NCBI RefSeq assembly: GCF_022024055.1
Contig: NZ_CP091788.1
Span: forward strand, 1,612,001-1,676,000
Source of the DNA: Prevotella sp. E2-28
Lineage (GTDB): Bacteria > Bacteroidota > Bacteroidia > Bacteroidales > Bacteroidaceae
Direction of reading: 5' to 3'
DNA length: 64,000 nucleotides
Part shown: piece after piece, positions 14,306 through 31,895 of the stretch
How positions within the stretch are numbered: the first letter of the stretch is position 1
Layout of the letters: every line of letters starts with the position of its first letter
The notes under the pieces: model-generated
Databases searched by the model: none
The model's input: only the letters and a program-made list of their open reading frames with translations
What the model was told of the DNA's origin: nothing
Made by a program: the position numbers and the translations under genes

Positions 14306-14605
14306 ATGCTTATGTTAGACAGAGCACAAACAATAGAAAAGTTGAAATCTACTCGTCAGTATCTAAGTGAGCACTACGGGGTTAGTTCGATGCTTCTTTT
14401 TGGTTCAGTTGCAAGAAATGAACAACGAGAAGACAGCGATGTCGATGTATGTGTTGAAATGAAACCCAACCTGTTCAAACAAGCTGGTGTAAAAAGCTAT
14501 TTGCAGGAATTGTTAGGTTGCTCCGTTGATGTTGTCCGTATGAGAGACAGTATGAATCAACTCTTTAAACAGCAAATCCAGAAATATGGAATTCAAGTCT
14601 ACTGA
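14306..14605 (+). CDS. MNT-domain nucleotidyltransferase antitoxin (MntA type)
   Basis: The 99-residue protein is a minimal nucleotidyltransferase with the family motif GS-x10-DxD (GSVARNEQREDSDVDV). In characterised HEPN/MNT modules the MNT protein neutralises the HEPN toxin by attaching AMP units to it. The HEPN gene follows directly, the two overlapping by 20 nt, which supports that role. A second Met at codon 3 (14312) could also be the start. No helix-turn-helix is visible, so autoregulation is not predicted from this protein. Confidence 0.9.
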   Translation: MLMLDRAQTIEKLKSTRQYLSEHYGVSSMLLFGSVARNEQREDSDVDVCVEMKPNLFKQAGVKSYLQELLGCSVDVVRMRDSMNQLFKQQIQKYGIQVY

Positions 14606-14987
14606 TAATACAGCTATGGTCTACGAGACCTTGAAAAATGTAGAAACTGCAATTTCAAGATTGCAAGAGCGCTCCATGGGAATTCATTCAGTTGACGACT
14701 ATCTGACGTCACCTAATGGAATGGAAAAGCTTGATGCAGCATGTATGGTTCTTATAGCACTTGGAGAAAGTGTAAAGACCTTGGACAAACTAACCGAAAA
14801 AGAACTGTTACCGACTTATCCTTCAATTGATTGGAAAGGCGTTATGGGAGTCAGAGATGTTATAGCTCATCACTATTTTGAAGTTGACCCTGACGCTGTC
14901 TTTGATATTATCAAGAACGACTTGGAGCCATTGAAAAAAGCTATCGACTTCTTCAAGGAAGAATTGTTCGGAAGCGGCAATAAATAA
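14586..14987 (+). CDS. HEPN-domain toxin (HepT type, DUF86)
   Basis: The 133-residue helical protein carries the HEPN ribonuclease motif R-x4-H followed by x-Tyr (RDVIAHHY), the exact R-x4-H-x-Y form in which the tyrosine is the known AMP acceptor of the partner MNT protein. HEPN toxins of this class are RNases. The 20-nt overlap with the MNT gene implies coupled translation. The motif is intact, so the pair looks functional rather than decayed. What RNA it would cut is unknown. Confidence 0.9.
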   Translation: MEFKSTDNTAMVYETLKNVETAISRLQERSMGIHSVDDYLTSPNGMEKLDAACMVLIALGESVKTLDKLTEKELLPTYPSIDWKGVMGVRDVIAHHYFEVDPDAVFDIIKNDLEPLKKAIDFFKEELFGSGNK

Positions 14988-15270: not shown

Positions 15271-17052
15271 ATGATTATGAAAAAACAATTATTACTTATC
15301 CTAATGTTATTGTTGCCCCTGGGAGCAAGTGCAGACAAAAGCGGTACATGTGGTACTAATTTGAAGTGGAACTATGTCGAAGAAACGCATATCCTAAAAA
15401 TTTTCGGAAATGGCGCAATGACGGATTTCAACCTCTATACCAACCCATGGAGAGAAATTAATGTCGAGCGAGTTATTATAGAAGAAGGAGTGACAAGCAT
15501 AGGAACATGTGCTTTCGTTTATCAAAGCAGCTTAACCTCTGTCATAATCCCCAATAGTGTGACAAAGATAGGATACGCTGCTTTCGCTAGTTGCGGGAAT
15601 CTGTCCTCAATCACGATTCCAACCAGTGTGACAAGTATCGGTGGAGAGGCTTTCTATGGATGTGTTCGCCTGACCTCTATTACAATACCAAATAGTGTGA
15701 CAAGCATAGAAAAGAGAGCTTTTTGTGGTTGTACTGGCCTGACCTCTATTACGATTCCTAATAGTGTGACAAGCATAGAAAAGAGAGCTTTTTGTGGTTG
15801 TACTGGCCTGACCTCTATTACGATTCCTAATAGTGTGACAATAATAGGACACGTTGCTTTCGCCGACTGCAGTAGTCTTGCTTCCATCACGATTCCTAAT
15901 AGCGTGATAGAAATAGTAAACCAAGCTTTCGAATATTGCTCAGGCTTGAAAACCATTACCATCCCTAATAGCATAGAAAGCATAGGCTACCGTGCTTTCG
16001 AATTATGTAGCGGCCTAACCAATGTCTATTGTTTAGCGAAAAATGTACCTGAGACGGACACTTATACCTTTATTGGCGCATATATCGAAAACACTATCCT
16101 TCACGTGCCTGCAGCATCAGTTGATGCCTATAGTTCAATAGACCCATGGAGAAATTTTAAAGATATTGTAGGAATTGTTCTGCCTGAACATACTCTGACT
16201 TACATATTAGACGGGAAGGAGTATAAATCATATAAGATAGAGGAAGGTGAAATCATTACACCTGAACCTCAGCCAACGAAGGAAGGCTACACATTCTCTG
16301 GTTGGAGCGAAATTCCTGCAACGATGCCTGCACAGGATGTAATCATTACTGGTAGTTTCAAGATTAATAAGTACTTACTGACTTATAAGGTAGATGATGA
16401 AATTGTGAAGAGCGACAGCATCGTTTACAATACGGTAATCACTCCTGAAGCTAATCCCACGAAGGAAGGTTACACCTTCAGTGGATGGAGCGCAATTCCA
16501 GAGACGATGCCTGCTCAGGATGTGGTCATTACTGGTAGTTTCAAGATTAATAAGTACTTACTGACTTACAAGGTAGATGATGAGATAGTGAAGAGCGACA
16601 GTATCGTTTACAATACGGCGATAACTCCAGAAGCAGAGCCTACCAAGGAGGGATATACCTTCAGCGGTTGGAGCGAAATACCTGAGACCATGCCAGCGAA
16701 AGATGTACTTGTTACAGGAACATTCTCGATTAACAGTTACAAGCTGACTTATATGATAGACGACAAGGTCTATAAGGATACTGTTTACGAATATAGTGCG
16801 ACGATTATTCCTGAGCCTATACCTGCAGGCAACTATGCTACTTTTGAGTGGATAGACCTGCCTGAGACGATGCCTGCTCATGATGTAGTGGTACATGCAA
16901 GCTATACCACAGGTATCAGGGAGATGATTCTGACGAAGCCACAGGATGTTCAGATCTATTCGCCTAATGGTAAGAAGTTGAATAAGCTGCAGAAGGGTCT
17001 GAATATCGTTCGCATGAGCAACGGAACAACGAAGAAAGTTGTCGTGAAATGA
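15271..17052 (+). CDS. BspA-like leucine-rich-repeat surface protein
   Basis: The 593-residue protein has a signal peptide (to about GASA, residue 21), a run of 23-residue LRR_5 repeats (about 60-260, repeat core SLTSITIPNSVTSIG.AF), four InlB B-repeat-like units (about 309-545, core EGYTFSGWSEIPETMPA) and a C-terminal sorting-type segment (VQIYSPNGKKLNKLQKGLNIV and basic tail VVVK). Such proteins are exported to the cell surface and bind host or other cell-surface ligands; the ligand is unknown. The start may be codon 1 or codon 3 (both Met). Two adjacent LRR units are nearly identical at DNA level, showing recent tandem duplication. A terminator lies about 160 nt downstream. Confidence 0.88.
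   Translation: MIMKKQLLLILMLLLPLGASADKSGTCGTNLKWNYVEETHILKIFGNGAMTDFNLYTNPWREINVERVIIEEGVTSIGTCAFVYQSSLTSVIIPNSVTKIGYAAFASCGNLSSITIPTSVTSIGGEAFYGCVRLTSITIPNSVTSIEKRAFCGCTGLTSITIPNSVTSIEKRAFCGCTGLTSITIPNSVTIIGHVAFADCSSLASITIPNSVIEIVNQAFEYCSGLKTITIPNSIESIGYRAFELCSGLTNVYCLAKNVPETDTYTFIGAYIENTILHVPAASVDAYSSIDPWRNFKDIVGIVLPEHTLTYILDGKEYKSYKIEEGEIITPEPQPTKEGYTFSGWSEIPATMPAQDVIITGSFKINKYLLTYKVDDEIVKSDSIVYNTVITPEANPTKEGYTFSGWSAIPETMPAQDVVITGSFKINKYLLTYKVDDEIVKSDSIVYNTAITPEAEPTKEGYTFSGWSEIPETMPAKDVLVTGTFSINSYKLTYMIDDKVYKDTVYEYSATIIPEPIPAGNYATFEWIDLPETMPAHDVVVHASYTTGIREMILTKPQDVQIYSPNGKKLNKLQKGLNIVRMSNGTTKKVVVK
15671..15808 (+). repeat. 69-bp tandem duplication inside the LRR gene
   Basis: Segments 15671-15739 and 15740-15808 are copies of one 23-codon LRR unit differing at only a few bases near the start. 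The unit length equals one LRR_5 repeat, so gain or loss by slippage keeps frame. Confidence 0.9.
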
Positions 17053-17067
17053 TGAAAAAGGAGAAAA

Positions 17068-17130
17068 GTCTAAGAAATAATTTCATAAGTCTAAGAGTTA
17101 TTCTCGTAACTCTAGGAGATAATTTCGTAA
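17068..17130 (+). repeat. Three 21-bp tandem repeats (family shared with 34772-34850)
   Basis: Three head-to-tail 21-nt units at 17068-17088, 17089-17109 and 17110-17130 share the pattern TCTAAGAgaTaaTtTCgTAA. The same unit occurs in reverse complement at 34772-34850. The stretch 17053-17460 holds no credible gene of its own apart from this repeat, hairpins and the leu promoter. Confidence 0.85.
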
Positions 17131-17210
17131 ACCCTATACTTAGCTATGCTAAGTGCCATACTTACGGTAGCTAAACACCATACTTTTATATCAAAAACTA
17201 TATTTTTAAG

Positions 17211-17272
17211 AAATGCTCCGCAAATACTTGGAAATGCCCAATACAAAGGCCAAGAGCTGCGGAGCATTTTTT
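17211..17272 (+). terminator. Terminator with CTCCGC stem
   Basis: AAATGCTCCGC (17211-17221) pairs with GCGGAGCATTT (17259-17269), an inner CTTGG/CCAAG stem stacks inside, and a T tract follows. It probably ends the BspA-like transcript. Confidence 0.75.
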
Positions 17273-17320
17273 ACTGCCAAAAAACTGCGGTATTTTCTGA
17301 GTCTCTTACCACCTCATAAA

Positions 17321-17375
17321 ATGCTCCGCACTTATCCCGTTGTTAGCCAGTAACTTGTATCGTTTTGCGGAGAAT
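17321..17375 (+). other. Second hairpin sharing the CTCCGCA arm
   Basis: CTCCGCA at 17324-17330 pairs with TGCGGAG at 17366-17372. The arms are the same as in the terminator at 17211-17272, so the arms of the two hairpins could also pair with each other. It lies upstream of the leu promoter. Confidence 0.5.
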
Positions 17376-17400
17376 TTTGTGCAAAAAAAGTAACAAATTA

Positions 17401-17432
17401 TTTGCAGGAATGGCTGAAAATGTGTAAATTTG
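17401..17432 (+). promoter_or_regulatory. Promoter of the leu operon
   Basis: TTTG at 17401-17404 and TAAATTTG at 17425-17432 are separated by 20 nt. The predicted transcript start is about 20-25 nt before the leader peptide. Confidence 0.75.
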
Positions 17433-17460
17433 CAGCCGTAAACAAAGAAATAGTGTAAAA

Positions 17461-17526
17461 ATGATACAGAATTACCTACTAGACGCCATTATTATTATTC
17501 GACTGCAACTGTGCGGGCGGAAGTGA
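17461..17526 (+). CDS. leu operon leader peptide (21 aa)
   Basis: A 21-codon ORF lies between promoter and terminator and is too short for ordinary gene calling. It starts ATG-ATA and holds two adjacent Leu codons, then four consecutive ATT Ile codons, then two more Leu codons, ending in Cys-Gly-Arg-Lys and TGA. Nine of 21 residues are Ile (5) or Leu (4). This is the signature of an attenuator leader sensing charged tRNA-Ile and tRNA-Leu. Its last codons overlap the proposed antiterminator arm. It is translated only for regulation; no function of the peptide is expected. Confidence 0.85.
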   Translation: MIQNYLLDAIIIIRLQLCGRK

Positions 17527-17616
17527 TTAGGCGTATATATACTGTAGGTAGATGCAAGTACATTTAAATCTTATAAGAGCCTTTCTCACTTCCGAGTGTG
17601 AAAGGCTTTTTCTTTT
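17518..17616 (+). promoter_or_regulatory. Transcription attenuator of the leu operon
   Basis: The terminator stem AGCCTTTC-T-CACT (17578-17590) with AGTG-T-GAAAGGCT (17595-17607) is followed by a T tract. Its CACTTCCG (17587-17594) is perfectly complementary to CGGAAGTG (17518-17525) at the end of the leader ORF, giving an 8-bp antiterminator. A weak earlier arm (CGCC 17484-17487 with GGCG 17516-17519) would free the terminator. Ribosome stalling on the Ile codons (17488-17499) should favour the antiterminator and allow transcription of leuA. All elements are read from sequence; the mechanism is inferred from classical leader attenuation. Confidence 0.82.
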
Positions 17617-17683
17617 GGATACAAAATAGGTGAGCAATATAATTTAGCGCAAGAACAAAACATAAAAAAAACAAGACAAGACG

Positions 17684-19189
17684 ATGAGTGACAGATTGTT
17701 TATTTTCGACACAACGCTCCGTGATGGCGAACAGGTGCCTGGCTGTCAGCTGAACACCGTAGAGAAGATTCAAGTGGCTAAGGCCCTTGAGCAGTTGGGC
17801 GTTGATGTAATCGAAGCAGGATTTCCTATTAGTAGTCCGGGTGATTTTAACTCGGTAATTGAGATTTCAAAGGCTGTTACCTGGCCCGTTATCTGTGCTT
17901 TGACACGTGCTGTAGAACGCGATATTGATGTCGCATTCGAAGCTCTGAAGTATGCTAAGCACAAACGTATTCATACAGGTATTGGAACCAGTGATGAACA
18001 CATTCAGTTCAAGTTTAATTCTACACGTGAGGAAATCCTGGAACGTGCTGTTGCTGCAACGAAGTATGCCAAGCGTTTTGTTGACGATGTAGAGTTTTAC
18101 TGCGAAGATGCCGGTCGTACGGATAATGAATATCTTGCTCGTGTGGTAGAGGCTGTTATTAAGGCTGGTGCAACAGTTGTGAATATTCCTGATACTACAG
18201 GCTATTGTCTGCCTCAGGAGTATTTCGAAAAGATTAAGTATCTGAAGGAGCATGTAGATTGTATCGATCGTGCTGTTATATCTACCCACTGTCATAATGA
18301 CTTGGGTATGGCAACGGCTAATACCCTAAGTGGTGTAATGGCAGGTGCCCGTCAGGTTGAGGTTACTATTAATGGTATTGGTGAACGAGCAGGTAATACC
18401 TCGCTTGAGGAAATTGCGATGATTCTTAAGTGTCACAAGGGTATTGCTATTGATACAAATATCAATACCACGAAAATCTACCCGACCTCACGAATGGTGT
18501 CATCCTTAATGAATATGCCTATTCAGCCTAATAAGGCTATCGTGGGGCGTAATGCCTTTGCCCATTCAAGTGGCATTCATCAGGATGGTGTGCTAAAGAA
18601 TGTCCATACTTATGAGATTATAGATCCAAAGGATGTAGGTATTGATGATAATAGCATTGTTTTGACTGCTCGTTCTGGACGTGCTGCCTTGAAACACCGT
18701 CTGCATATCAACGGTGTTGACGTGAGTGACGAGGAAAAGGTAGATAAAATCTACGAGAAATTCTTGGCGTTGGCCGACTTGAAGAAGGAGGTGAGCGATG
18801 CCGATGTGCTGATGTTGGCTGGTGCCGATACTGCCGATCAACATGCTGTGAAGTTGGATTTCCTGCAGGTTACTACGGGTAAAGGTGTGAAGAGTGTTGC
18901 TTCTATCGGTCTGGATATCAGTGGTCAGAAATTTGAGGCTGCGTCAAGTGGTAATGGTCCTGTGGATGCAGCTATCAAGGCCTTGAAGAAGATTATCATG
19001 AAGCAAATGACGTTGAAGGAATTCACCATTCAGGCTATCTCCAAGGGTTCCGATGATGTCGGTAAGGTACACATGCAGGTTGAGTATCAAGGTGCCTTGT
19101 ACTATGGCTTTGGTGCGAATACCGATATTGTGACGGCCTCTGTAGAAGCATATATAGACTGTATCAACAAGTTTAAAAAGGAAGTATAA
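17684..19189 (+). CDS. leuA: 2-isopropylmalate synthase
   Basis: The 501-residue enzyme condenses 2-ketoisovalerate with acetyl-CoA, the first committed step of leucine synthesis. DTTLRDGEQ (residues 9-17) carries the metal Asp and catalytic Arg, [11 protein letters not shown] has the metal histidines, and NGIGERAGN is the second HMGL-family signature. The C-terminal part from about 390 ([24 protein letters not shown]) is the LeuA allosteric regulatory domain for leucine feedback. Length is typical of long-form LeuA. It is the first structural gene after the attenuator and touches leuC as TAATG. Confidence 0.95.
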
Positions 19190-20565
19190 TGAATACGCTT
19201 TTCGATAAAATATGGGACCAACATGTCGTGCAACAGATACCCGACGGTCCTACACAATTATATATTGATCGCTTATATTGTCACGAGGTAACATCGCCTC
19301 AGGCTTTCGATGGTATGCGCGCCCGTGGGTTAAAATGTTTCCGTCCGCAACAGATTTTCTGTATGCCCGACCATAACACACCTACTCATGATCAGGATAA
19401 GCCTATAGAGGATCCTGTATCCAAGAAGCAGGTTGACACGCTGGCTAAGAATGCTGCAGAGTTTGGACTGACGCATTACGGCATGATGTCTAAAGATAAC
19501 GGAATAATCCATGTTGTTGGTCCTGAGAAGGGACTTTCATTGCCTGGAATGACAATCGTCTGTGGAGACTCTCATACATCTACTCACGGCGCAATGGGTG
19601 CTGTCGCTTTTGGTATTGGTACTAGTGAAGTGGAAATGGTGATGGCCTCACAATGTATCCTCCAACAGAAGCCTAAGTCTATGCGTATCACCATTAATGG
19701 TACTTTAGGAAAAGGAGTTACGGCAAAGGATGTAGCCCTCTATCTGATGGCTCAACTAACCACCAGTGGTGCTACTGGCTATTTCGTGGAATATGCAGGT
19801 CCTGTTGTAGAGGCCTTATCGATGGAGGGCCGCCTGACACTCTGTAATCTGTCTATCGAGATGGGTGCTCGTGGCGGATTCATTGCTCCTGATGAAACCA
19901 CCTTTAATTATATAAAGGGTCGCGAGTATGCTCCTAAGGGTGAGGCATGGGATAAAGCCGTGGCTTATTGGAAGACACTAAAAAGTGGCGATGATGCCGT
20001 ATTTGACAAGGAACTGTGTTTCGATGCGGCTGATATTGAGCCTCGCGTTACTTATGGCACCAATCCCGGTATGGGTATTGGTATTACCGAGGCTATTCCA
20101 ACTGAGGGTGGGGTAGGCTTTGAGAAATCATTGAGCTACATGCAGTTTAAACCAGGACAGCAACTGCTGGGTACAAAGGTTGATTATGTCTTCCTTGGTG
20201 CTTGTACTAATGGTCGTATAGAAGATTTCCGTGCCTTCGCCTCACTTGTGAAAGGCCGTCGTAAGGCCGATGATGTGGTGGCATGGCTCGTTCCTGGTTC
20301 GTGGGCTGTTGACAAGCAGATTCGCGAAGAAGGACTTGACAAGGTTCTTGCAGAAGCTGGCTTTGAGATTCGTCAGCCTGGATGCTCGGCTTGTCTTGCT
20401 ATGAACGACGATAAGATTCCTGCAGGCAAACTGAGCGTGAGTACGTCGAATCGTAATTTCGAAGGTCGTCAGGGTCCTGGAGCCCGCACCATTTTGGCAT
20501 CGCCATTAACTGCCGCTGCCGCTGCTGTAACAGGAGTAATCACCGATCCAAGAACACTATTATGA
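19189..20565 (+). CDS. leuC: 3-isopropylmalate dehydratase large subunit
   Basis: The 458-residue protein is the Fe-S subunit of isopropylmalate isomerase. The three cluster cysteines are visible as Cys339 (FLGACTNGR) and Cys399/Cys402 ([11 protein letters not shown]). Other family motifs are [14 protein letters not shown] and [21 protein letters not shown]. It overlaps leuA by one base (TAATG) and leuD by four (ATGA), so the genes are translationally coupled. With LeuD the same enzyme can also act on citramalate in organisms that make isoleucine by that route. Confidence 0.96.
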
Positions 20566-21152
20566 AACAGAAATTCAACGTTATAACATCCACCTGCGTT
20601 CCTCTGCCTTTGGAGAACGTAGATACAGACCAAATTATACCTGCCCGTTTTCTCAAGGCCACGGACAAAGAGGGCTTTGGCGATAACCTGTTTAGAGACT
20701 GGCGCTATCGTCCCGATGGTAGCTTGGTTGAGGATTTCGTCCTGAACGACCCGAAATACGATGGTTGCATCCTTGTAGCGGGAAAGAACTTTGGTTCAGG
20801 TTCCAGTCGCGAACATGCCGCGTGGGCTATTGCAGGCTACGGCTTCCGTGTGGTTATCAGTTCGTTCTTTGCCGATATTCATAAGAACAACGAGCTGAAT
20901 AACTTCGTGCTCCCAGTTGTGGTCAGCGAAACTTTCTTGGCAGAGCTCTTTGAGAGTATACGTCAGAATCCTAAGATGGAGGTTGAGGTAGATTTGCCTC
21001 GTCAAACGGTAACTAATAAGGCAACGGGCCGTAGCGAGCACTTCGATATCAACGGCTACAAGAAACACTGCCTGATGCAGGGACTCGATGACATCGATTT
21101 CCTGGTACAGAACAAAGACAAAACAGAAGCATGGGAACAAGTGAACAAATAA
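20562..21152 (+). CDS. leuD: 3-isopropylmalate dehydratase small subunit
   Basis: The 196-residue swivelling subunit of the isomerase. Family landmarks are [19 protein letters not shown] near the start and [17 protein letters not shown] in the middle. Length is typical. The start overlaps leuC as ATGA, and the 3' end overlaps the next gene by 22 nt. Confidence 0.96.
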
Positions 21153-22714
21153 ACAGATATCAGCGCATACAACCTTTCGTAGAGATTATGGATTCTACAC
21201 TTCGTGATGGTGAACAAACCAGCGGTGTGTCGTTCCTGCCTCACGAGAAGTTGGTTATGGCCCGCAAATTACTCTCAGATGTCAATGTTGACCGTATAGA
21301 AGTGGCTTCGGCACGTGTCTCTGAGGGTGAGCGTGAAGCTGTGACGAAGATATGTACGTACGCAGAGAAGCATGGTCTCTTAGACCGCGTCGAGGTGTTG
21401 GGCTTTGTAGATGGTGGAAAGAGCATTGATTGGATTGCTTCATGTGGTGGTCGTGTGGTAAATCTGCTGTGTAAGGGTTCATTGAAACATTGCACTCATC
21501 AGTTACAGAAGTCGCCTAAGGAGCATATCAGTGATATCCAGAAGGAAGTGGCATATGCTGCCAGCAAGGGCTTCAGTGTCAATCTCTATTTGGAGGATTG
21601 GTCTAATGGCATGAAGGATTCACCTGAGTATGTCTATCAGTTGATGGATGCGCTCACCTCTCATCTCTCACCTCTCACCTCTATCAAGCGCTTTATGCTC
21701 CCTGATACGTTGGGTGTCATGAATCCTCTGCAGGTTATAGAGTATTTCCGTAAGATGATCAAGCGATATCCTACGACCCATTTTGATTTCCATGCCCATA
21801 ATGATTACGACCTGGCTGTGAGTAATTCTCTGGCAGCCGTGTTGAGTGGCGCACGTGGTCTTCATGTTACCGTTAATGGACTGGGAGAGCGTTGTGGTAA
21901 TGCACCTATGGCTTCCGTTCAAGCCATCTTGAAGGATCAGTTCCATGCCAAGACTAATCTTGTGGAGAGTCAGCTTAATGACCTCTCGCGTATGGTTGAG
22001 AGCTTCAGTGGTATCACGGTGGCACCTAATCAGCCTATCGTTGGTGAGAATGTATTCACTCAGGTGGCAGGCGTTCATGCTGATGGTGATTCAAAGGACC
22101 GCCTTTATTATAATGAACTGATGCCTGAGCGCTTCGGTCGTAAGCGTGAGTATGCTTTGGGTAAGAATTCTGGCAAGGCGAATATCGCGAAGAACTTGGA
22201 AGAATTGGGCTTGGAACTGACACCAGAGCAGACTCGACGGGTCACTGAGCGTATCACCGAACTGGGTGATAAGAAGGAAATCGTTACTCAGGAGGACCTG
22301 CCTTATATTGTCAGTGATGTGCTGAAACATGATGGCTCTGACGATAAGGTGAAACTTATCAGTTATGTGGTCTCTACAGCCTATGGCCTGAAGCCTGGGG
22401 CCAATGTGCGTGTGGAGATTAACGGACAGCAGTATGAGGCTGGTGCTACAGGCGATGGTCAGTATGATGCTTTCGTTAAGGCCCTGCGATATATCTATAA
22501 GAAATATCTGGATAGGACGTTCCCTGTACTGGCCAACTACCAGGTTACCATTCCGCCGGGTGGACGTACTGATGCTTTGGTGCAGACGGTCATCTCATGG
22601 CATTACAACGGTGGACTGCTCCGTACGCGAGGCCTTGATGCCGACCAGACGGAAGCAGCTATCAAGGCAACGTTCAAGATGCTGAATATCATTGAAAATG
22701 AAACCTTAAAATAA
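21131..22714 (+). CDS. Citramalate/2-isopropylmalate synthase-like enzyme
   Basis: The 527-residue protein is a second acetyl-CoA-dependent HMGL-family synthase in the operon. It shows MDSTLRDGEQTSGVSF, DFHAHNDYDLA, NGLGERCGNAP and a C-terminal LeuA-type regulatory domain (GANVRVEINGQQYEAGATGDG). It differs clearly from LeuA and fits the CimA-like branch annotated in Bacteroidota as alpha-isopropylmalate or citramalate synthase. If it makes (R)-citramalate from pyruvate, LeuCD and LeuB would turn that into 2-ketobutyrate for isoleucine, which agrees with the Ile-rich leader. Substrate is inference. It starts 22 nt inside leuD; a later Met at 21188 is less likely because it removes only a short N-terminus before the active-site Asp. 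Confidence 0.85.
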   Translation: MGTSEQINRYQRIQPFVEIMDSTLRDGEQTSGVSFLPHEKLVMARKLLSDVNVDRIEVASARVSEGEREAVTKICTYAEKHGLLDRVEVLGFVDGGKSIDWIASCGGRVVNLLCKGSLKHCTHQLQKSPKEHISDIQKEVAYAASKGFSVNLYLEDWSNGMKDSPEYVYQLMDALTSHLSPLTSIKRFMLPDTLGVMNPLQVIEYFRKMIKRYPTTHFDFHAHNDYDLAVSNSLAAVLSGARGLHVTVNGLGERCGNAPMASVQAILKDQFHAKTNLVESQLNDLSRMVESFSGITVAPNQPIVGENVFTQVAGVHADGDSKDRLYYNELMPERFGRKREYALGKNSGKANIAKNLEELGLELTPEQTRRVTERITELGDKKEIVTQEDLPYIVSDVLKHDGSDDKVKLISYVVSTAYGLKPGANVRVEINGQQYEAGATGDGQYDAFVKALRYIYKKYLDRTFPVLANYQVTIPPGGRTDALVQTVISWHYNGGLLRTRGLDADQTEAAIKATFKMLNIIENETLK

Positions 22715-22729
22715 CCCCAAATTTTTATT

Positions 22730-23791
22730 ATGAAACTGAAAATTGCAATCCTTCCGGGCGATGGTATCGGACCGGAAATTATGAAGCAAGGTGTGGCTGT
22801 GCTTGATGCTGTAGCTGAGAAATGTGGCCATGAGTTTATATATGAAGAAGCACTTGTTGGAGCTTGTGCTATAGAGACTGTTGGTGACCCGTATCCCGAG
22901 GCTACTCATGCGGCCTGTATGAATGCCGATGCAGTGCTCTTTGCTGCTGTGGGCGATTTGAAATACGACAACAATCCCACGTTGAAGGTTCGCCCTGAGA
23001 CCGGTCTGCTAGCTATGCGCAAGAAGTTAGGACTTTTTGCCAATGTGCGTCCTGTAGCCACATTTGATTGCTTGCTGCATAAATCGCCATTAAAAGAGGA
23101 ACTGTTGAAAGGTGCTGACTTCGTGGTTCTTCGTGAACTCACTGGCGGTATGTATTTCGGCGAGAAATATCAGGATAATGATAAGGCCTTCGATACCAAT
23201 GTCTATACTCGTCCCGAGATTGAGCGCATCCTGAAGGTGGCTTTCGAAATGGCTATGCAGCGCCGTAAGCACCTCACGGTAGTTGATAAGGCTAATGTCC
23301 TTGCATCCAGTCGTTTGTGGCGCCAGATTGCAAAGGAGATGGAATCACAGTATCCTGAGGTGACAACAGATTATATGTTTATCGACAATGCTTCTATGCG
23401 TGTGCTTACCGAGCCACGTTTCTTTGATGTCATCGTGACAGAGAACACCTTTGGCGATATCCTTACTGACGAGACTTCTTGCATCACGGGTTCTATGGGT
23501 CTGCAGCCTTCTTCTTCTTTGGGTGAGCATACACCGCTCTTCGAACCTGTTCATGGCTCATGGCCTCAGGCTGCTGGTCAGAATCTGGCTAATCCATTGG
23601 CACAGATTCTTTCTGCCGCTATGCTGTTGGAACATTTCGGACTTAACAAGGAGGGTGCCCTCATTCGTGAGGCTGTCAATGCTTCACTCGATGCCAATGT
23701 GCGTACCCCCGAAATCCAAGTGGAAGGTGGACAAAAATATGGCACCAAGGAAGTTGGTGCCTGGATTGTAGATTACATCAAAAAGTCGTAA
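22730..23791 (+). CDS. leuB: 3-isopropylmalate dehydrogenase
   Basis: The 353-residue NAD-dependent beta-decarboxylating dehydrogenase completes the leucine-specific steps. Motifs include [11 protein letters not shown] at the N-terminus, [28 protein letters not shown], the substrate Lys in [14 protein letters not shown], and [22 protein letters not shown]. Length and start are normal. It is the last gene of the operon, 15 nt after the cimA-like gene. Its stop codon lies in the stem of a terminator shared with the convergent channel gene. Confidence 0.96.
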
Positions 23792-26428: not shown

Positions 26429-26659
26429 AGATTTACATAGACAGAAGTAGTACAAGAAGCGAGTATTTAATGTTTAATATTTAATGTTAGGTACTTGGGT
26501 AAAAAGAAACAAACCGTTTAATTCTTGAATACTGGATAGTCGTTCTGAGGCAGATAATGATTAAATTTACAAGGCTTCTGGGAACGAGTGCAATGAAAGC
26601 TTGCTTTCAATTGCCGAGTGACGATGAAGACTCGTAAAGGATATCGAAGATATTATTTA

Positions 26660-28264
<1,605 letters not shown>

Positions 28265-28386
28265 GAATGACTGTCAATACAGAAGTCAAGAAGGTTTGAT
28301 TCCAAACCCATTGCTTCTTTACTACACGCTGTTTATATAAAGAGAATGTATGAGGCTGGGCAGAGGTACCCCCTCTGACCAAACAG

Positions 28387-28460
28387 AGTCCTATAGCTCA
28401 GTTGGTTAGAGCGCCACACTGATAATGTGGAGGTCGGCAGTTCAAGTCTGCCTGGGACTA
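28387..28460 (+). tRNA. tRNA-Ile (GAT)
   Basis: A 74-nt cloverleaf has acceptor stem AGTCCTA with TGGGACT, anticodon stem CCACA/TGTGG and anticodon GAT at 28421-28423. The 3' CCA is not encoded. Confidence 0.97.
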
Positions 28461-28479
28461 CCTTAGATAACTCAATTAT

Positions 28480-28553
<74 letters not shown>

Positions 28554-28612
28554 CAGCGTACAACGACAACCTCTGAAATTTAATGTTTCATGTTTAATGT
28601 TTAATGTACAAG

Positions 28613-28623
28613 AGATCTTTGAC
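28613..28623 (+). promoter_or_regulatory. boxA-like site before 23S
   Basis: GATCTTTGACA in the tRNA-23S spacer resembles the leader boxA-like site. The surrounding 28561-28756 spacer otherwise holds TTTAATGT repeats and no gene. Confidence 0.5.
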
Positions 28624-28756
28624 ATATTGACACACAAGACTGTAAGTAAAGACTTTGATAAGTCAAACTGAGTAGATTAATAATCTCAAAATTACAGCTG
28701 AAAGTATGAGCTATACGTTGAATGTTTAATGTTTAGTCATTAATGTTTAATGTATA

Positions 28757-31655
<2,899 letters not shown>

Positions 31656-31775
31656 GTGAAGCGCATGCTTTCAACTGTGAGCAGTTTGATGAATGAAGTT
31701 AGAGCTTCAGTCTATGTGTGGTATGTCAACCTTATACCGGTACGTCCAGAAGACATGGCGTATTGAGAGATATTT

Positions 31776-31886
<111 letters not shown>

Positions 31887-31895
31887 TTTTCAGAG

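Follow-up and report, generated by a model that had tools for sequence, protein, structure and literature searches.

A candidate leader-peptide attenuator with isoleucine and leucine codons before a leu operon containing a cimA-like gene in Prevotella

The window, the whole 64-kb stretch of Prevotella sp. E2-28 DNA that was analyzed, carries an operon with the gene order leuA-leuC-leuD-cimA-like-leuB and an attenuator-like leader upstream. Four of the operon genes pass curated cut-offs. The exception is the fourth in order; because its score to the Leptospira CimA model NF042433 lies under the cut-off of that model, cimA-like is the right word for it. The features are as follows.

17401..17432, plus strand: putative Bacteroidota-type promoter, with TTTG at 17401-17404, 20 nt, and TAAATTTG at 17425-17432
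17461..17526, plus strand: leader peptide ORF of 21 codons, MIQNYLLDAIIIIRLQLCGRK, read from the sequence and conserved in relatives
17476..17481, plus strand: tandem CTA Leu codons, candidate Leu control codons in view of CTA enrichment in leaders
17488..17499, plus strand: four ATT Ile codons, candidate control codons, the last three within the extended 1:2 stem
17500..17506, plus strand: arm 1, CGACTGC, pairing with 17513-17519 with one mismatch; four of six pairs changed on both sides
17513..17526, plus strand: arm 2, in which 17518-17526 (CGGAAGTGA) is the antiterminator strand and contains the leader stop codon
17578..17616, plus strand: predicted intrinsic terminator, stem at about 17578-17607 (one mismatch) plus U-rich tract
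17586..17594, plus strand: arm 3, TCACTTCCG, tip of the terminator 5' arm plus loop, pairing with 17518-17526
17684..19189, plus strand: leuA, 2-isopropylmalate synthase (TIGR00973, 654.6 bits, above cut-off)
19189..20565, plus strand: leuC (TIGR00170, 620.1 bits, above cut-off)
20562..21152, plus strand: leuD (TIGR00171, 185.3 bits, above cut-off)
21131..22714, plus strand: cimA-like gene (citramalate synthase; best match NF042433, 615.5 bits, cut-off of 950 not reached)
22730..23791, plus strand: leuB (TIGR00169, 432.8 bits, above cut-off)

The leader runs from an ATG at 17461 to a TGA at 17524-17526. It reads ATG ATA CAG AAT TAC CTA CTA GAC GCC ATT ATT ATT ATT and, after the ATT run, CGA CTG CAA CTG TGC GGG CGG AAG TGA, with further Leu codons at 17503-17505 (CTG) and 17509-17511 (CTG). 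A first-pass annotation of the window had described a 21-codon leader with four tandem ATT codons and Leu codons before and after them, all of which are found at 17461-17526. The promoter that it claimed is present as a promoter-like site of the Bacteroidota consensus type, and the claimed terminator, a stem and U-rich tract found by sequence, lies between the leader and the leuA start. An E. coli-style scanner called neither of the two and is not informative here. The 8-bp antiterminator proposed in that annotation (17518-17525 with 17587-17594) does pair, and its extent needs correction, since the perfect helix 2:3 has 9 bp, 17518-17526 with 17586-17594. Overlooked at that stage were the pair of rare CTA codons and the 1:2 hairpin, whose stem takes in all but the first of the four ATT codons. 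The minimum free energy of the leader region has a z-score of -3.66, with an equally good fold in one of 200 shuffles. A pairing of TACCTAC with GTAGGTA (17474-17480 with 17545-17551) is present in the window's own fold; as a general feature it was rejected, as by eye it is not kept in relatives.

LeuA was detected in 40 of the 60 genomes searched. Of the 22 same-genus loci in this set with an examined upstream region, window included, 16 have a leader and terminator before leuA. The remaining six (L006, L008, L011, L012, L013, L024) have none within 420 nt of leuA; at least one of them, L012, shows by eye a promoter-like site directly before leuA and looks like a loss of the switch. The element also occurs in other Bacteroidales, for example Bacteroides gallinarum, B. 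rodentium and Phocaeicola plebeius, as well as MAGs of Tannerellaceae, Paludibacteraceae and Prolixibacteraceae. One fixed finder located a leader and terminator in 107 of 210 leuA loci, a set in which some genomes are counted twice and a few are non-Bacteroidota; five of the 107 positives, either spurious or not belonging to the set, were subsequently removed. A dinucleotide shuffle control on 106 of the 107 positive regions, one shuffle each, gave a single finder match. The finder takes the ORF richest in Ile, Leu and Val and treats the three residues alike, so that richness of a leader in these residues is not independent evidence. By the same finder, 35 of 101 cimA-type loci have no leader and terminator, and these, with the six same-genus loci, indicate that the switch is dispensable.

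The comparison sample comprised 145 genomes with leuA, of which 130 plus 8 were used and seven with partial leuA excluded. Removal of L059, L108, L110, L215 and L222 took the 107 leaders to 102, and reduction of redundancy then left 82 loci. TAnnTTTG precedes the leader ATG by no more than 130 nt in 71 of these 82, with TTTG 17-23 nt further upstream in 56, and five have an SD-like motif at the leader start.

Pairing of the arms was examined in an alignment of 26 sequences from this genus and close kin. In helices 1:2 and 3:4, 91.4% of cells are paired and eight pairs are changed on both sides; none of 500 shuffles was as good on any of five measures, and sliding the helices out of register left at most 53.6% paired. 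Helix 2:3 is 95.7% paired, against 32.8-55.8% when slid, with two pairs changed on both sides. One of 500 shuffles reached its percentage paired and six of 500 its covariation score; the observed numbers of pairs changed on both sides and of pair types were reached by 38 and 147 of 500, respectively, so that this part of the control is weak. The sequence of helix 2:3 varies little within this close alignment. In distant relatives, arms 2 and 3 read GAGAATGG and CCATTCTC in L054 and CTCCAGAGG and CCTCCGGAG, with one mismatch, in L066, while in L061 a G run stands opposite a C run. Arm sequences are thus strongly conserved inside the genus and replaced in other families, with pairing retained. 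That the leader and its complementarity are kept in close relatives, on which the first-pass reading depended, is borne out by the 16 same-genus loci, by the other families, and by the maintenance of three helices.

Across the 82 loci, cognate duplexes of arm 2 with the terminator average -16.25 kcal/mol, against -12.66 (sd 0.28) with terminators permuted (0 of 20000 permutations), and in 69 of the 82 the duplex has z below -2 relative to mononucleotide shuffles. The cognate terminator is the single best partner in only three of 82 loci, and among the top three in 18, since certain upstream regions form good duplexes with the terminators of many loci. The 1:2 segment outperforms shuffles by a modest margin (mean z -1.14; 41 of 82 loci lie under -1). 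The reading frame through arm 2 switches while the RNA stays constant: CGGAAGTGA is read as CGG AAG TGA, for a tail -RK-stop, in L001, L004, L007, L010 and L014, among others, and as C GGA AGT GA (-GSD-) in, for example, L002, L003, L005 and L009. Judging from the alignments, therefore, it is the RNA arm and not the peptide tail that is conserved.

Codon content of the leaders was compared with the genes of the operons that they precede. Removal of ten rows that were spurious, duplicated or from outside the set (L127, L140, L057, L263, L264, L108, L110, L215, L222, L243) left 108 leuA leaders, of which 85 + 6 + 6 were tested. Eleven were excluded as contig-cut or of other make-up (L023, L028, L043, L046, L047, L055, L061, L064, L199, L204 and L228, with 3, 6, 6, 4, 5, 5, 4, 5, 1, 7 and 6 Ile codons, respectively). 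The 85 leaders before leu operons with cimA (or ilvA, in L058) have two to seven Ile codons, with means of 4.65 Ile and 4.25 Leu; cimA is inferred for 19 of them from a second profile match downstream of leuA, which for L026 lies beyond a contig break, and L188, L191 and L194 entered the group by gene order. Six leaders before leuACDB operons in CimA-less genomes, with ilvA not in the operon, have 0, 0, 0, 1, 1 and 3 Ile codons, and six before leuA alone, with CimA elsewhere, have zero to three. An Ile-Ile pair is present in 75 of the 85 and in none of these 12 Leu-type leaders. With shared ancestry ignored, a Mann-Whitney test gives p 4.7e-5 for 85 versus 6, and p 3.5e-8 with both Leu-type groups pooled.

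Of the CimA-less leaders, the five that have no more than one Ile codon are L159 (family f26), L229, L232 and L247 (family f9), and L066, whose terminator resembles that of f9, so that independent losses may be as few as two. Within f26, L160 has cimA and four Ile codons, and L159, without CimA, has no Ile and six Leu codons; no leader was found at L179, in the same family with cimA present. Ancylomarina L058 has no CimA and seven Ile codons, and an ilvA-like gene directly follows leuB in the same gene run. Outside the test, L061 and L064 have four and five Ile codons; their operons include leuCD, CimA is encoded elsewhere, and IlvA gave no match. Two loci are misfits, L268 (family f23), with three Ile codons in a CimA-less genome, and L199, contig-cut, with one Ile codon although leuCD is in the operon and CimA elsewhere. 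IlvA and cimA together do not remove Ile codons, four being found in each of two such genomes, G319 (L141) and G308 (L160).

Leaders before ilvD in related families have at least two Val codons in 24 of 26 cases (two spurious rows dropped), and 17 of the 85 leu leaders also have at least two, mostly in the tail. In the L229 gene run, the leader of leuA is of the Leu type and that of ilvD of the Ile/Val type. Val-rich ilvD leaders with the same terminator style were seen at L111-L136, L229, L257 and L261, and the Flavobacterium ilvD leaders L094 and L099 are Ile/Val-rich with one or no Leu, leuA and leuB of that gene run lying upstream of the leader. In the window genome, no leader was found before hisG, two aspartokinase-family genes (by eye) or ilvD.

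In related bacteria, then, leader codon content appears largely to match operon products. The citramalate route makes 2-oxobutyrate for Ile by way of CimA, LeuCD and LeuB. With CimA in the operon, this route would supply the 2-oxobutyrate, and Ile limitation should induce the leu operon. In the window genome, IlvA was not detected with model TIGR01127 at E 1e-40 (best match 62.6 bits), and the leu operon is therefore probably its main Ile route. CimA has been listed as an alternative to IlvA in gut genomes (PMC9026213). The link to the cimA-like gene suggested in the first-pass annotation is supported by the way Ile count tracks Ile-making operon genes. The accompanying statement that Ile dominates the leader is accurate for this genus and does not extend to the wider cimA/ilvA group, in which the Ile and Leu means are close.

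The rare codon CTA accounts for 126 of 379 Leu codons in leaders; in the accompanying leuA genes the figure is 68 of 2713. In this genus the leader figure is 19 of 53 (17 loci), and in the window itself the operon genes and one neighboring gene use CTA for seven of 239 Leu codons. Of the leader Leu codons that precede the arm 2 core by 26 nt or more, 84 of 218 are CTA; with CTA enriched so far upstream, pairing of arm 2 is an unlikely explanation. Because the CTA pair of the window sits 19-24 nt upstream of arm 1, Leu control is less certain there than Ile control.

In the 82 loci the median distance from the end of the final Ile or Leu codon to the arm 2 core is 12 nt, and in 73 the stop codon lies -12 to +24 nt from the arm 2 end. 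A protector 1:2 hairpin with control codons in or beside arm 1 is found in this genus and close kin. We used a simple folding model in which ribosome-covered bases are kept unpaired, as are, for an Ile stall, all upstream bases. For the window, it predicts P(3:4) 0.998 with no ribosome and likewise 0.998 with a ribosome on the stop codon. For an Ile stall on the full transcript, P(2:3) is 0.895 with the footprint edge at 17512, 0.31 at 17510 and 0.10 at 17507; with RNA only up to the terminator loop and coverage to 17510, it is 0.987. A ribosome on the CTA pair is predicted to favor 1:2 and 3:4 on the full transcript (P(3:4) 0.98) and 2:3 on the shorter one (0.97). Over all loci, a stall at some leader codon permits 2:3 in 81 of 82, and once the ribosome occupies the stop codon P(2:3) is under 0.5, again in 81 of 82. 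Ile and Leu together make up 53% of codons at the permissive positions versus 14% elsewhere. At the loop stage the ribosome-free model favors 2:3 in 31 of 82 loci (P(2:3) 0.04 in the window), so termination by default in the absence of translation is not predicted everywhere.

Sensing of Ile by the leader is well supported, and sensing of Leu is likely. The dual Ile/Leu control envisaged in the first-pass annotation is therefore a likely proposition, well supported for Ile by codon counts that track operon genes and less certain for Leu, for which the CTA-stall predictions conflict.

The sequence has a leader with codons for the product amino acids, a terminator, the competing helix 2:3, the 1:2 hairpin, and a stop codon in position. 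With a probability of roughly 0.9, we interpret the element as a ribosome-mediated transcription attenuator through which charged tRNA-Ile, and more weakly or indirectly tRNA-Leu, would set expression of leuA-leuC-leuD-cimA-leuB. The comparison shows the anatomy, helices kept through sequence change, and codon content matching operon products; from these we infer initiation at the 17401-17432 promoter, leader translation, stalling, and the Ile/Leu response. With ample Ile and Leu, the ribosome would reach the stop codon at 17524-17526 and cover arm 2, upon which the terminator would fold and transcription would stop. With Ile scarce, or with Leu scarce at the CTG that lies within arm 1, the ribosome would stall at control codons in or beside that arm, the 1:2 hairpin would not form, and arm 2 could capture arm 3, pre-empting the terminator so that the operon is transcribed. 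A "leucine" operon would have reason to read Ile, since the citramalate (CimA) pathway to that amino acid also draws on LeuC, LeuD and LeuB.

A translated leader need not control by stalling. The terminator might be constitutive or otherwise tuned, with the Ile/Leu-rich peptide incidental or acting through general translation efficiency, and in keeping with this the six same-genus loci manage without the element. Anatomy alone can mislead, as substitution of candidate codons in the ilvB leader of Streptomyces coelicolor was reported to be without effect (PMC1262725). An incidental peptide, however, would not predict codon content that tracks operon products, CTA enrichment in leaders, or maintenance of the competing helix 2:3, and we regard this explanation as improbable. 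Still more improbable is a trans-acting or ligand-binding device (a T-box, riboswitch or protein-bound leader) acting through the same terminator. The leader is long and structured, and its arms are strongly conserved in the genus, which speaks for such a device, but in other families the arms are replaced while pairing persists, and no constant ligand-like core is seen. A whole-window scan gave no Rfam match at gathering score at the leader, whether to a T-box, a riboswitch or another known RNA family. The seven weak matches at 17380-17690, in a search up to E 10, have E values of 0.03 to 6.9, score far below their gathering thresholds, and include no T-box.

Within the attenuator interpretation, the element in this genus might be essentially an Ile sensor whose Leu codons are relics of a mixed Bacteroidales leader. 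The Bacteroides-type IIILL beside arm 1 is here replaced by R-L with one common CTG, and when the full transcript is modeled at equilibrium the CTA pair is too far away to reach arm 1. Against this, CTA stays frequent in leaders of the genus and upstream of arm 2 generally, and CTA stalls favor 2:3 in the shorter transcript; an Ile-only sensor seems to us doubtful, although a serious contender.

Enterobacterial leuL has a leader peptide with control-codon runs, and the E. coli leu leader uses the rare CTA for Leu; the enterobacterial ilvGMEDA leader, ilvL, is multivalent, with several branched-chain amino acids read. Like leuL, the element described here places a leader before leuA, with control-codon runs and protector, antiterminator and terminator arms; unlike leuL, it has four tandem Ile codons, a cimA-like gene in the operon, a TAnnTTTG-type promoter, and an A-rich, SD-poor leader start. 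As in ilvL, several branched-chain amino acids would be read by a multivalent leader, but the control run holds Ile and Leu and no Val, as Val is not among the products of the operon; in related families a separate leader, that of ilvD, is the Val-rich counterpart. The likeness of the window leader to leuL and ilvL is a resemblance of design only.

A 2010 comparative study by Lopatovskaya and colleagues reportedly treats attenuation in many phyla and may cover Bacteroidetes. The literature that we searched yielded no description of a leuA or leu leader for Bacteroidota. Strong clues for leader-peptide attenuation before amino-acid operons have been reported in Flavobacterium psychrophilum (PMC9723704), in the same phylum as the window genome, although the passages of that report cited here name no operon, codons or arms. 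Bacteroid-trp RNA (RF01692), a candidate structured RNA of Bacteroidetes (Weinberg 2010, PMC2864571), has a name that points to trp genes, and it concerns another operon and another family; with 150 of 283 candidates scored, it has no match in the window genome, while the control, Bacteroides ihuae, has one. The actinobacterial LEU element and ilvB leaders carry runs of Leu, or of Ile, Val and Leu, in front of leuA or ilvB (PMC1262725) and so share a leader peptide with a branched-chain codon run, but the LEU element is described there as a pseudoknot involving the leuA Shine-Dalgarno box, where the present system has a terminator/antiterminator switch. Small ORFs reminiscent of leader peptides are mentioned in B. 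thetaiotaomicron (PMC7366714), and for his genes in Bacteroidota the relevant text speaks of attenuation in general only (PMC8305728). The first-pass remark that such attenuation is "rarely discussed" in Bacteroidota is apt as worded; "never" would be wrong in light of PMC9723704 and RF01692.

The mechanism is thus of a classical, known kind, and the matching of codons to operon is its most interesting feature. On balance it seems probable that a codon-programmable attenuator chassis for operons of branched-chain amino acids is widespread in Bacteroidota, with a three-arm RNA that is kept, control codons that are rewritten, SD-poor initiation and tight coupling. If so, leader codons would follow gain and loss of cimA, ilvA and ilv genes, as Leu only, Leu plus Ile, Ile plus Val, or all three. 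The codons in the leader shift with the set of biosynthetic genes that an operon carries, so that sensor and pathway appear to have evolved jointly. To work despite SD-poor initiation, such a chassis would require tight transcription-translation coupling over the leader, and if a terminator read by ribosomes does function here, ribosome and RNA polymerase would have to be closely coupled in an SD-poor phylum. Such a terminator would also predict how gut and rumen Bacteroidales tune Ile and Leu synthesis, and the leader, being compact, is a candidate for an Ile reporter in Bacteroidales.

Several other features surround the operon. Between the upstream gene and the promoter, at 17197-17391, are repeated inverted elements, AAATGCTCCGCA / TGCGGAGCATTTT, among them a 16-nt arm pair that is 94% complementary with a T-rich end, and with a second copy of AAATGCTCCGCA 108 nt further on; possibly these are the terminator of the upstream gene, duplicated. 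Three tandem 21-nt repeats (17066-17128) lie just after that gene, which encodes a repeat-rich surface-type protein (15271-17052) with matches to a HupY-like leucine-rich-repeat adhesin and the List_Bact_rpt repeat. Further upstream, at 14306-14987, an MntA-like nucleotidyltransferase gene is paired with a HepT-like gene, both scoring below curated cut-offs, a possible type VII toxin-antitoxin system. Downstream, at 26659-31887, is an rRNA operon (16S, 23S, 5S) with two tRNA genes in its spacer.
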